Below, piece after piece: positions 11,649 through 24,546 of a DNA stretch of 43,909 nt. A program made the translations under genes and the position numbers. The notes under the pieces were generated by a model, which was not told the DNA's origin, ran no database searches, and worked only from the letters and a program-made list of their open reading frames with translations. Numbering within the stretch: the first letter of the stretch is position 1; every line of letters starts with the position of its first letter. The stretch lies in the NCBI GenBank assembly GCA_007375725.1, contig VMEV01000017.1, positions 1-43,909 of the forward strand, in the 5' to 3' direction. The stretch comes from Parcubacteria group bacterium Greene0416_36. GTDB lineage: Bacteria > Patescibacteriota > Patescibacteriia > VMEV01.

Positions 11649-11918
11649 TTAATTGGAGATTAACATTAAAGACTCTTTTAGCATATTTTTTAGAATGGCT
11701 TTGCCTTTGGTTGTCTTAAAGTAATGTTCTCTTCGCAATGCGTCTTTTTTTGATAAATAGGCTTCGTAGAAGATCAGTTGTAAGGGGAGGCGTGTAGCGG
11801 TGGAAGTATTTTCACCTCGTTGATGTTCAAAATATCGTCTTTTAAAATCGTTTGTACATCCAATATAAAATTTATAATCTTTTTTACTTAGTAAAATATA
11901 CACGTAATAAAATTTCAT
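11649..11918 (-). CDS. GIY-YIG nuclease domain protein (UvrC/URI type)
   Basis: 89 residues from the ATG at 11918 (a start at 11933 would add five residues). It has all parts of the single-domain GIY-YIG fold: 'YYVYILLS', 'FYIGCTNDFKRRYFEHQRG', 'STATRLPLQLIFYEAY' and 'DALRREHYFKTTKG'. The two Tyr, the Arg in 'KRR' and the Glu in 'RRE' are the expected catalytic residues. Stand-alone members are very common in CPR genomes, and their substrate is usually unknown. The gene lies 14 nt upstream of the hypothetical gene at 11092-11634. Confidence 0.88.
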   Translation of the reverse strand: MKFYYVYILLSKKDYKFYIGCTNDFKRRYFEHQRGENTSTATRLPLQLIFYEAYLSKKDALRREHYFKTTKGKAILKNMLKESLMLISN

Positions 11919-11962
11919 AAAAAAATCCAACACCTATAAAAAGTGAAGGATTTTTATTGCCA

Positions 11963-12207
11963 TGTACCACTCGGCTAATCGCCTCGGGTACAGGGCGTTC
12001 ACCACTCGCTATGTTCTGAAAAGCAGAACTGGGTTCACACCACACTTTTCTCAATGAAATGGCGTGCCGTGAACCCGAGCAACGCGAGTGGTTCACGGCT
12101 CGGCGGGTAGGGCTCGAACCTACAACCAATGGATTAACAGTCCACTGCTCTACCATTGAGCTACCACCGAATGAACCCTGCACCCGAGGCCTTAGCCGAG
12201 TGGTACA
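11963..12207. repeat. Four REP-like palindromic units around tRNA-Asn
   Basis: Units share ACCACTCG...CTCGGGT or close variants. Copies 1 (11963-11992) and 2 (11998-12038) read forward; copies 3 (12069-12096) and 4 (12179-12207) are inverted. ACCACTCGC/GCGAGTGGT and GGGTTCAC/GTGAACCC pair between copies 2 and 3, and copies 1 and 4 pair over about 25 bases. Copy 2 carries an inserted hairpin (GTTCTG-CAGAAC). Confidence 0.6.
12099..12170 (-). tRNA. tRNA-Asn (GTT)
   Basis: A 72-nt cloverleaf. Acceptor TCGGTGG/CCGCCGA, D-arm with 'AGCTCAATGGTAGAGCA', anticodon loop CTGTTAA (GUU), T-arm 'TAGGTTCGAGCCCTA', discriminator G as expected for Asn. No CCA is encoded. Confidence 0.95.
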
Positions 12208-12295
12208 GGGAAATGACCACCCACATATTATAAATTCCACCAAAATTTGTAAAGAGTGTATGATATTGGAAATATAATCAATATCGATCAAAAAT

Positions 12296-21522: not shown

Positions 21523-21537
21523 TTTCGCTTTTTAGCT

Positions 21538-21555
21538 CATCACTGAACCTCCAAA
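21538..21555 (-). promoter_or_regulatory. Ribosome binding site before interrupted ATG
   Basis: GGAGG on the minus strand (about 21548-21552), 7 nt before ATG (21538-21540). It is the strongest SD in this part of the window and points to the ATG, not the GTG, as the original start of the 20704-21522 gene. Confidence 0.7.
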
Positions 21556-21631
21556 AAAAATAACAATCAGAATATGTAACGGTTTATAATACACTATTTA
21601 CAGTGGATGTCAATATAAGCCAAGCACAAAT

Positions 21632-21666
21632 AAAAAATCATCGCTATGGGATAGCGATGATTTTTT
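21632..21666 (-). terminator. Terminator after hicB remnant
   Basis: A perfect 16-bp stem AAAAAATCATCGCTAT (21632-21647), loop GGG, complement 21651-21666. It is A/T-flanked on both sides and begins at the stop codon of the HicB-like remnant. Confidence 0.75.
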
Positions 21667-21770
21667 AGCAGTGAAGCTCAATGGCCTCTCTCGCCATTTT
21701 CTTTGCTTCTGCCAGAGAATGGCCAAAAGTCACAATCCCCGGAAGACCCGGAACATCTACCAAAATAGAA
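21665..21770 (-). pseudogene. Remnant of HicB-type antitoxin gene
   Basis: The minus-strand frame reads '...SSILVDVPGLPGIVTFGHSL' then 'AEAKKMAREAIELHC' and stop (21665-21667). This matches the N-terminal partner-folding part of HicB antitoxins ('vPdLPGcvT.GdtleEA...EAIelh'). There is no start codon or N-terminus, as the frame runs into the hairpin at 21772-21805, and the C-terminal DNA-binding part is missing. No hicA is adjacent. The assignment rests on this one motif. Confidence 0.5.
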
Positions 21771-21771
21771 G

Positions 21772-21810
21772 AAGCACCCGATTGTTTTTAGACAACCGAG
21801 TGCTTTATTA
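21772..21810 (+). terminator. Hairpin upstream of hicB remnant
   Basis: AAGCACCCGATTGT (21772-21785), loop TTTTAG, ACAACCGAGTGCTT (21792-21805), 14 bp with two wobble pairs, followed by TATTATT on the plus strand. Confidence 0.5.
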
Positions 21811-22249
21811 TTCATTCACCTTTAAGGTCGGAATGTGTCGACCTTTTTTGCATTTGTAGTGCCACCTCTCAAACCCAGGCGGTGCGGGTTGTGCTTGGTT
21901 AATATATTTAAAAATTTATTAACCAAGCACCTACAAGTAATGGCCAAACATATTTTGGCCTCCTTTCTTGTAAGAACTCTCCCCATCCGAATTTGCAGAT
22001 AAAATTGCTATTCGATTATTCGGATGGAAAGAAAAGCCTATTTTGATTTCTGATTTTTTTTATAACGAGGGATCAGTCAACCCTCTCTCAACTTTGGTTT
22101 TCATTCCGGCCCCCCTTTCGTTGGGTAAAAGAAATGAACCAATTGAGGTCTGTTTTTGTCAAAATTGCGGGGATCACAGACAACCCCATTGCATTATGAA
22201 TTTACGATTCCCTATTTTTTTTACAAGGTTAGGGATCCTTGCCAAAATC
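21811..22249. other. Gene-free, hairpin-rich stretch
   Basis: Three clean hairpins follow each other: GTGCTTGGTTAATA (21891-21904) with 21917-21930; GGCCAAA (21942-21948) with 21954-21960; CATCCGAAT (21984-21992) with 22018-22026. A weak plus-strand frame (22043-22300) has no recognisable content. No other gene is visible. This may be a structured 3' UTR or an unrecognised RNA. Confidence 0.5.
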
Positions 22250-22756: not shown

Positions 22757-22984
22757 TTTTAATCCTCTCAAATCCCTCCCCTTCCCCCTCCGCACACGCG
22801 TCGAGTTCAGGTTCGGAAAATTATTTTTTGTTTAATTTGTACCTTCAAGCCTTCATCACAAATCGCTCAGAAGAGCGGGACAAAGGCTGAAAGGGACAAA
22901 CTAAACATATTGGGAAGATCAAAGGCGAAAAAGGTGTAGAGGGCCAGAGAAGAATCGACAGCGCAAAGTTAAAAAATAAGATTG

Positions 22985-23175
22985 AGCCTGATTCTTCATG
23001 TGTCCATAGAGAGGAACACCTCGGATACGCGTTCCGGGCATCTCGGCGCCCAACAGGCATTGCTGCACTGCTATGGCACTCAAGTGGTAGCCCAAAACCG
23101 TTATCCCAAGAATTCCAGTTCACTCGGTTAAGAGTGGTGAGGACTTTTAGATGAACCGGAAACTTTTCTCCACGA
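22985..23175 (-). ncRNA. Candidate structured RNA of unknown class
   Basis: A G+C-rich block inside A/T-rich DNA. On the minus strand CCGGTTCA...TGAACTGG closes a stem over a CACTC/GAGTG hairpin, and GTGCCATAG...CTATGGACAC closes a branched region holding hairpins GGGC...GCCC and GGAAC...GTTCC. Two consensus promoters (23349-23377 and 23427-23455) fire into it. A 119-residue frame (22845-23204) covers it but looks like a by-product (no family, low-complexity end, no SD). No RNase P, tmRNA, SRP or 6S signature was found. The strand is set by the promoters; the ends are uncertain. Confidence 0.4.
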
Positions 23176-23348
23176 CAAGCAAAGAAAAGGATCTTTATAT
23201 TCATTTAATGGGTCCTCTACATTTTTTTCGTTTTGATCTATATTGTCAATGTAACACTTACTACCTAGCTTTTGAAAAGCGAATCAACTTCGCTTGGCCT
23301 GCTCTACTTGTAACTTGTAATTTGTGACTTCTTCGATCTTATGTTACC

Positions 23349-23377
23349 AGTATAGCATACCGCTTTGTTTGTGTCAA
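23349..23377 (-). promoter_or_regulatory. Strong promoter P2 (tandem)
   Basis: TTGACA (23372-23377), 17 bp, TATACT (23349-23354), with extended -10 TGC. It reads left toward the candidate RNA. Confidence 0.75.
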
Positions 23378-23426
23378 GTAGACGCTTTCTTGTTTTGATC
23401 AACTCTTCTTGTCTAGCATTGTATAT

Positions 23427-23455
23427 ATAATAGCATACTTATATAATATTGTCAA
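23427..23455 (-). promoter_or_regulatory. Strong promoter P1 (tandem)
   Basis: TTGACA (23450-23455), 17 bp, TATTAT (23427-23432), again with GTATGC before the -10. It lies 78 bp upstream of P2 with the same layout. Confidence 0.75.
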
Positions 23456-23592: not shown

Positions 23593-23879
23593 AATGTGAA
23601 TATTGAAACCTCAATTAGCAATAAAATGGAGAGTCAGAGCAACAAACCCATCCCCGACCCTTCCCTTAAACAAGGAAGGGGGAACAACAGTCCGGCCCTT
23701 GTTTCGGGGCTAGCTGTTGCTCCCTCCTTGTTAAGGGAGGGCTGCGTGCCGGCCGTAGCTTTTTAGCGAAGGCTGGGGGTGGGTTTGTTGCTCAATTGCC
23801 TAAGTGGGCAAATAAAAATCATTCATTAATTTAAAAAAATACTTTTAAAACTTCAAAAATCAGGTTTCAATATTCACAT
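23593..23879. repeat. MITE-like element with 18-bp perfect terminal inverted repeats
   Basis: ATGTGAATATTGAAACCT (23593-23610) and its exact complement (23862-23879) bound 287 bp without a gene. Inside (23640-23790) is a core from CAACAAACCCATCCCC to GGGGTGGGTTTGTTG, related to the other palindromic elements but with further nested inverted repeats (GGAACAACAG/CTGTTGCTCC). It ends 10 bp before the -35 of the DksA-like gene. Confidence 0.8.
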
Positions 23880-23967: not shown

Positions 23968-24546
23968 ATGGCAAATAATATAAAAGAAGTTGAAATCTAT
24001 CTGGAGGCCCGTTCTTTTTTAAAAGATAAAGATATTCCTTTCATGAAAGAATATCTGGCACAAATGACAGAAAAAGAAAGAGAAGCTTTCTTTCTGCGGT
24101 TCGAAGATGCCAATGCACTTGAAGCCACAGAAAAACAGAAAGTATTAAGTCTTATGCAGTATTTTCATCAAGAAAGGCTTAAAAATACTGTAAATCAATA
24201 CATCATCAATCAACAAATCACACCCAATAGCCAAGACAAATTGACGTGTGATTGCCTGAACTGCGATCATCCTTATTGCCCCGCTTTTCGAAAATATAGA
24301 AAAGCGCATCTAATCAATAAGTTGATCAAAACTCGAGAATCCCTTGCCACACCTAACCTGAGCGAAACCCTTCTAGCAGAAAAAGCTCGTGAGATGATAG
24401 ATATTCCATTATCACTCCAAAAACTGGAAAATCGGGGTTATGGAATCTGCGAGGACTGCCTCGAATATATCAGCAAAAAAAGACTGGAAAAACTACCCGA
24501 GGCAAGACGCTGTCTGGAGTGCCAGACTCGGGTCGATAAAAAATAA
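23968..24546 (+). CDS. DksA/TraR-type zinc-finger protein
   Basis: 192 residues. The C-terminal zinc finger is C-x2-C-x17-C-x2-C ('CEDCLEYISKKRLEKLPEAR' then 'RCLEC'), the hallmark of DksA/TraR. A second Cys cluster precedes it ('CDCLNCDHPYC'), which classical DksA lacks. The N-terminal 80 residues are helical and charged and could be the coiled coil or a separate domain; I do not see the usual Asp-x-x-Asp tip. DksA-type proteins bind RNA polymerase through its secondary channel. It has a consensus promoter, SD and terminator of its own, so it is probably well expressed. Confidence 0.75.
   Translation: MANNIKEVEIYLEARSFLKDKDIPFMKEYLAQMTEKEREAFFLRFEDANALEATEKQKVLSLMQYFHQERLKNTVNQYIINQQITPNSQDKLTCDCLNCDHPYCPAFRKYRKAHLINKLIKTRESLATPNLSETLLAEKAREMIDIPLSLQKLENRGYGICEDCLEYISKKRLEKLPEARRCLECQTRVDKK

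Follow-up and report, generated by a model that had tools for sequence, protein, structure and literature searches.

A candidate lineage-restricted structured RNA behind twin near-consensus promoters in a parcubacterial genome

In the window, i.e., the whole 43,909-nt stretch of DNA analyzed, the minus-strand segment 23343-22820 is on balance best read as a lineage-restricted structured RNA that would be transcribed from two tandem promoters, P1 and P2, and probably on through the adjacent orphan gene ORF168 (Table 1). This reading is plausible, drawn as it is from a single sequence, and held with moderate confidence. Direct support comes from the promoter match, a well-defined and strand-specific fold, the absence of a codon signal and the absence of a match to known RNA families. 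An undescribed structured RNA had already been proposed at this locus by a previous sequence-only reading; of that proposal, the non-coding character and the minus-strand fold outside Rfam stand, for the one sequence at hand, while the argument from the promoters turned out to be weak.

The source genome has a size of 1.03 Mb on 25 contigs and is rated 100% complete, the window being contig 6. RNA genes of the window are a lone 16S rRNA gene at 20382-18901 (minus strand) and four tRNA genes. The candidate RNA block itself is flanked by a divergently oriented gene for a DksA/TraR-like protein and by ORF168 on the minus strand.

Table 1. Predicted features of the candidate RNA locus, given in window positions.
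Feature	Positions	Strand	Description
DksA/TraR-like gene	23968-24546	plus	flanking gene, divergent from candidate RNA
Promoter P1	23455-23427	minus	TTGACA-17-TATTAT, extended -10 (TGC); predicted start about 23420
Promoter P2	23377-23349	minus	TTGACA-17-TATACT, extended -10 (TGC); predicted start about 23342
5' stretch	23343-23238	minus	weakly folded (z -0.7), heptamer repeats (ACAAGTT type), one small hairpin
Structured RNA core	23237-22914	minus	113 predicted pairs, -120 kcal/mol
Helix H1, 5' strand	23237-23211	minus	closing helix, 23 pairs with 22945-22918
Arm H2	23208-23147	minus	irregular hairpin, 22 pairs
Helix H3, 5' strand	23144-23141	minus	4 pairs with 23005-23002, enclosing H4 and H5
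Arm H4	23136-23121	minus	hairpin CACTC/GAGTG
Arm H5	23116-23013	minus	42-pair stem, long and richer in G+C, with strong strand specificity
Arm H6	22997-22949	minus	hairpin, 17 pairs
Helix H1, 3' strand	22945-22918	minus	predicted fold
Arm H7	22907-22829	minus	79-nt near-palindromic hairpin directly 3' of the core, outside H1; z -10.5
ORF168	22756-22250	minus	orphan of 168 aa with a hydrophobic N-terminal segment; ribosome-binding site GAGAGGA
First good intrinsic terminator after the promoters	21805-21772	minus	with T-run, beyond ORF168

As had been noticed from the sequence, P1 and P2 are near-perfect promoters of the same layout, each with 11 of 12 consensus matches, equal 17-bp spacers and GTATGC preceding the -10, and they are 78 bp apart. 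Within the window, the extended promoter pattern is found three times when allowing for at most one mismatch, compared to 0.08 expected occurrences, and the third copy is located directly upstream of tRNA-Gly. Throughout the 1.03-Mb genome, 37 sites with at most one mismatch are present versus four with a reversed-pattern control, and seven perfect extended -10 promoters, two of them being P1 and P2. Among seven random sites, the chance expectation for same-strand pairs not more than 100 bp apart is about 0.002. The GTATGC shared by both promoters corresponds to the extended -10 (TATGCTATNNT) and also occurs at unrelated genes in related genomes, and it reads as no special feature of the pair. 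Strong promoters of the relatives show the sequence (A/G)TATGCTATNAT and mostly precede small orphan proteins with hydrophobic N-termini. Near-identical extended -10 promoters (TTGACA...ATGCTATTAT) stand before orphan proteins at five loci of related genomes; several of these proteins are small and have a hydrophobic N-terminus, and they possibly represent a shared high-expression class.

The earlier claim that twin strong promoters are typical of stable RNA genes finds little backing in this genome, as four of the other five perfect promoters lead to protein genes, namely one for NusA, as identified by its sequence, and three for small or orphan proteins, and the fifth to a non-coding folded stretch (locus L097). 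Loci with one mismatch include tmRNA and tRNA-Glu. Because most of their counterparts drive protein genes, promoters of the P1/P2 type mark strong expression, not RNA genes per se, and on their own are no proof that a stable RNA is encoded. It also weighs against the candidate RNA that the promoter region has been rearranged, as shown by the tandem direct repeats surrounding it.

The fold of the core is both deep and well defined. Its z-score of -8.5 compares with -7.35 for the RNase P RNA and -2.3 for the tmRNA of the same genome, and its mean positional entropy of 0.25 compares with a shuffle mean of 1.08, none of 200 dinucleotide shuffles being as low, and with 0.35 for the RNase P RNA. Accordingly, the core is more stable and better defined than its shuffles, as examined in a general test for structured non-coding RNAs. 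When scanning 1247 segments of 324 nt from both strands of the 44 kb, the two lowest entropies belong to the core and a segment overlapping it. Considering G+C-corrected stability alone, however, the core ranks only 15th of 1247, because palindromic elements also fold strongly. In such elements the two strands fold alike, whereas the fold inside the closing helix is strand-specific (z -6.1 on the minus versus -2.2 on the plus strand), and the core is therefore not simply palindromic DNA. For a 110-nt slice over H5, the minus strand likewise reaches -56.1 kcal/mol (z -5.5), compared to -33.4 kcal/mol (z -1.3) for the plus strand. G-U pairs account for part of this asymmetry, which suggests that any selection acts on the minus-strand RNA. 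Hence, the description of the block as foldable was strongly confirmed for the core on the minus strand, while its description as G+C-rich hardly applies, with 44.4% G+C in the core versus 43.6% in the window and 56% in the central stem alone.

A further point against the candidate is that strong folding of both strands, owing to palindromes and terminators, is also seen in other intergenic stretches of the genome. In the window, the most stable segment after G+C correction (-159.5 kcal/mol per 324 nt) is a self-complementary block of about 240 nt with a long closing helix (11904-12227, minus strand), within which the tRNA-Asn gene is located (12170-12097) and where Rfam matched the tRNA alone. 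Between the two orphan genes, a 727-nt non-coding stretch (21523-22249) can form several strong hairpins on either strand, with z about -7 to -8. The 286-bp element at 23594-23879 is bordered by 23-nt terminal inverted repeats that are 91% complementary and contains a segment of about 50 nt (about 23639-23690) with about 30 further matches in the genome, which together form a family of dispersed palindromic repeats. The 5' stretch of the candidate RNA contains, at 23300-23335, heptamer repeats of the ACTTGTA/ACTTGTG type, and tandem arrays of this type occur at seven other loci, in this genome as well as in further members of the phylum. At L097 (G000:C15, promoter 67557-67529, minus strand), the perfect promoter is followed by a non-coding stretch of about 180 nt with a long closing helix and a T-run at its end (z -8.2 versus -5.4 for the antisense strand), for which no Rfam match was obtained. 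It is a second candidate for an orphan RNA in this genome and might represent the 6S- or SRP-like RNA that is missing from it. In a related genome (L011, from about position 617, G080:C67), the same promoter type precedes a folded stretch of about 200 nt with a clear intrinsic terminator and no Rfam match, its fold being moderately better than shuffles (z -2.5).

Arm H7 is not a canonical terminator, as no U-tract follows. Between the candidate RNA and ORF168, no intrinsic terminator was found; the first good one is located after that gene. Co-transcription is thus the simplest reading, and both are probably part of one transcript. For the same reason, a free-standing gene is no more likely than a leader or a processed RNA. 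P1 and P2 would function as tandem vegetative-type promoters of an RNA consisting of a multi-branched domain of about 324 nt with a 23-pair closing helix, followed by the 79-nt hairpin, and transcription would most likely run through ORF168 to the terminator behind it. The domain might either constitute the structured 5' part of the ORF168 mRNA or be cut out and persist as an RNA of its own, in which case H1 and H7 might represent protective or RNase III-type ends. Excision to a stable product and function as a leader are each given a little less than an even chance. Transcription, co-transcription, processing and any function of the candidate RNA are inferred.

A free-standing gene for a stable non-coding RNA, which would end at or near H7 and act in trans without relation to ORF168, can be considered only tentatively. 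The very strong tandem promoters, the compact, self-closed domain with a fold as well defined as that of RNase P RNA and the occurrence of L097 as a second non-coding structured stretch behind a perfect promoter are all in line with such a gene. However, H7 is followed by an A-rich stretch and not by an intrinsic terminator, most other perfect promoters of the genome drive protein genes, and no homologue was found, whereas stable housekeeping RNAs are conserved. It is likewise possible, but somewhat doubtful, that the block is a long structured 5' leader controlling expression of ORF168 in cis. The gene starts about 75 nt beyond H7 on the same strand, has a good ribosome-binding site and shares the terminator; the same promoter type is found before small orphan membrane proteins in relatives, and locus L098 of this genome combines a folded leader with an orphan gene behind such a promoter. 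On the other hand, the core is closed on itself, showing no evident switch pairing with the ORF168 start, and does not match a riboswitch family.

Searching 95 relatives and, across the phylum, 287 genomes with blastn did not detect a homologue of the block, only promoter matches, heptamer repeats and scattered chance matches of 20-30 nt being returned. A covariance model, insensitive because built from a single sequence, recovered only the candidate itself and one 57-nt chance match from 334 genomes of the class and 37 searched with laxer filters. Neither exact 19-mers in viral contigs nor blastn in plasmids and phages gave a match. Synteny via the DksA/TraR-like gene led only to distant homologues, with nothing similar beside them in the loci examined. 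A contig scan with the neighboring gene did not reveal a close relative, the best match showing 49% identity in an Azambacteria genome. The closest proteins found for this gene belong to Azambacteria and Kaiserbacteria, which marks the source genome as parcubacterial. Collecting homologues had been advised by the sequence-only reading; none was found in parcubacterial relatives, plasmids, phages or viral contigs, a result that does not extend to close kin, as the collections may omit records very near the source genome and the nearest genomes compared share only the class with it.

A remnant of a mobile element, or an inverted-repeat DNA element with the fold as a by-product, is quite unlikely: the closing helix does resemble terminal inverted repeats of about 26 nt, and a 286-bp inverted-repeat element just upstream as well as partial direct repeats nearby would fit, but the core occurs only once in the source genome and its fold is strand-specific inside the closing helix. 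The statement that the block holds no convincing protein was substantiated by a score of -0.146 bits per codon for its 119-residue frame, which is below all 29 training genes (29 of 29 at or above -0.01) and falls among frames antisense to real genes (-0.08 to -0.27 bits per codon), by G+C flat across the three codon positions and by the lack of a family match in Pfam and NCBIfam. Although its ATG is preceded at 8 nt by AGAGGA, a small protein gene explaining the block is highly improbable and was rejected, considering these codon statistics, the missing family and the ribosome-binding site (Shine-Dalgarno), which is buried in H1 by complete pairing.

Very small parcubacterial genomes have little spare DNA, and hardly any charting of non-coding RNAs exists for this radiation. 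The structured RNA favored here, with a promoter arrangement among the strongest of the genome and an RNase P-grade fold, might qualify as an abundant RNA missed by Rfam-based annotation; as a leader, it would reveal how these cells control the orphan membrane proteins behind their strongest promoters. That it represents an undescribed class of highly expressed, complex-folded RNA with its own function, confined to a single order-level lineage among ultra-small parcubacteria, is rather unlikely.

Among known RNA families, none could be assigned to the block. The minus-strand Rfam comparison that had been recommended gave nothing at the gathering threshold and nothing credible at E-values up to 10, the best relaxed matches being leader and microRNA models positioned on H7, and a description of this RNA was not found in the literature. 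In agreement with the initial impression, the block does not match RNase P RNA, tmRNA, SRP RNA or 6S RNA. The genome's own RNase P RNA (RF00010) resembles the candidate in length class, fold depth and fold definition, but is encoded at G000:C14:65778-66219, and an RF00010/RF00011-type match is missing in the block. The tmRNA (RF00023), of similar size (about 400 nt) and situated close to a promoter-like site of this type that is near-perfect, is located at G000:C3:27499-27908, and ARAGORN did not detect a tRNA-like domain with a tag reading frame in the candidate. The bacterial SRP RNA models, with their conserved apical domain, gave no match for the region at the relaxed threshold; RF00169 is absent from the genome, and the small SRP models match nowhere in it. 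Likewise, 6S models have no match anywhere in the genome, including RF00013 in the block. In E. coli, 6S RNA has tandem promoters and a long closing helix, and the candidate shares both; however, 6S RNA is one rod with a central bubble, whereas the candidate is predicted to form a longer, multi-branched domain. GOLLD, ROOL and OLE are large, ornate bacterial non-coding RNAs with intricate folds, whose roles are unknown or poorly known (PMC12286853), which the candidate resembles as a long, intricate non-coding RNA, although models for these three, as well as for group I/II introns and riboswitches, do not match the block at the gathering or relaxed threshold. Motifs from intergenic searches and long structured mRNA leaders rest on comparative sequence analysis (PMC6429828, PMC8632094), in contrast to the single sequence available here; like them, the candidate is structured and precedes a gene within a long intergenic region.
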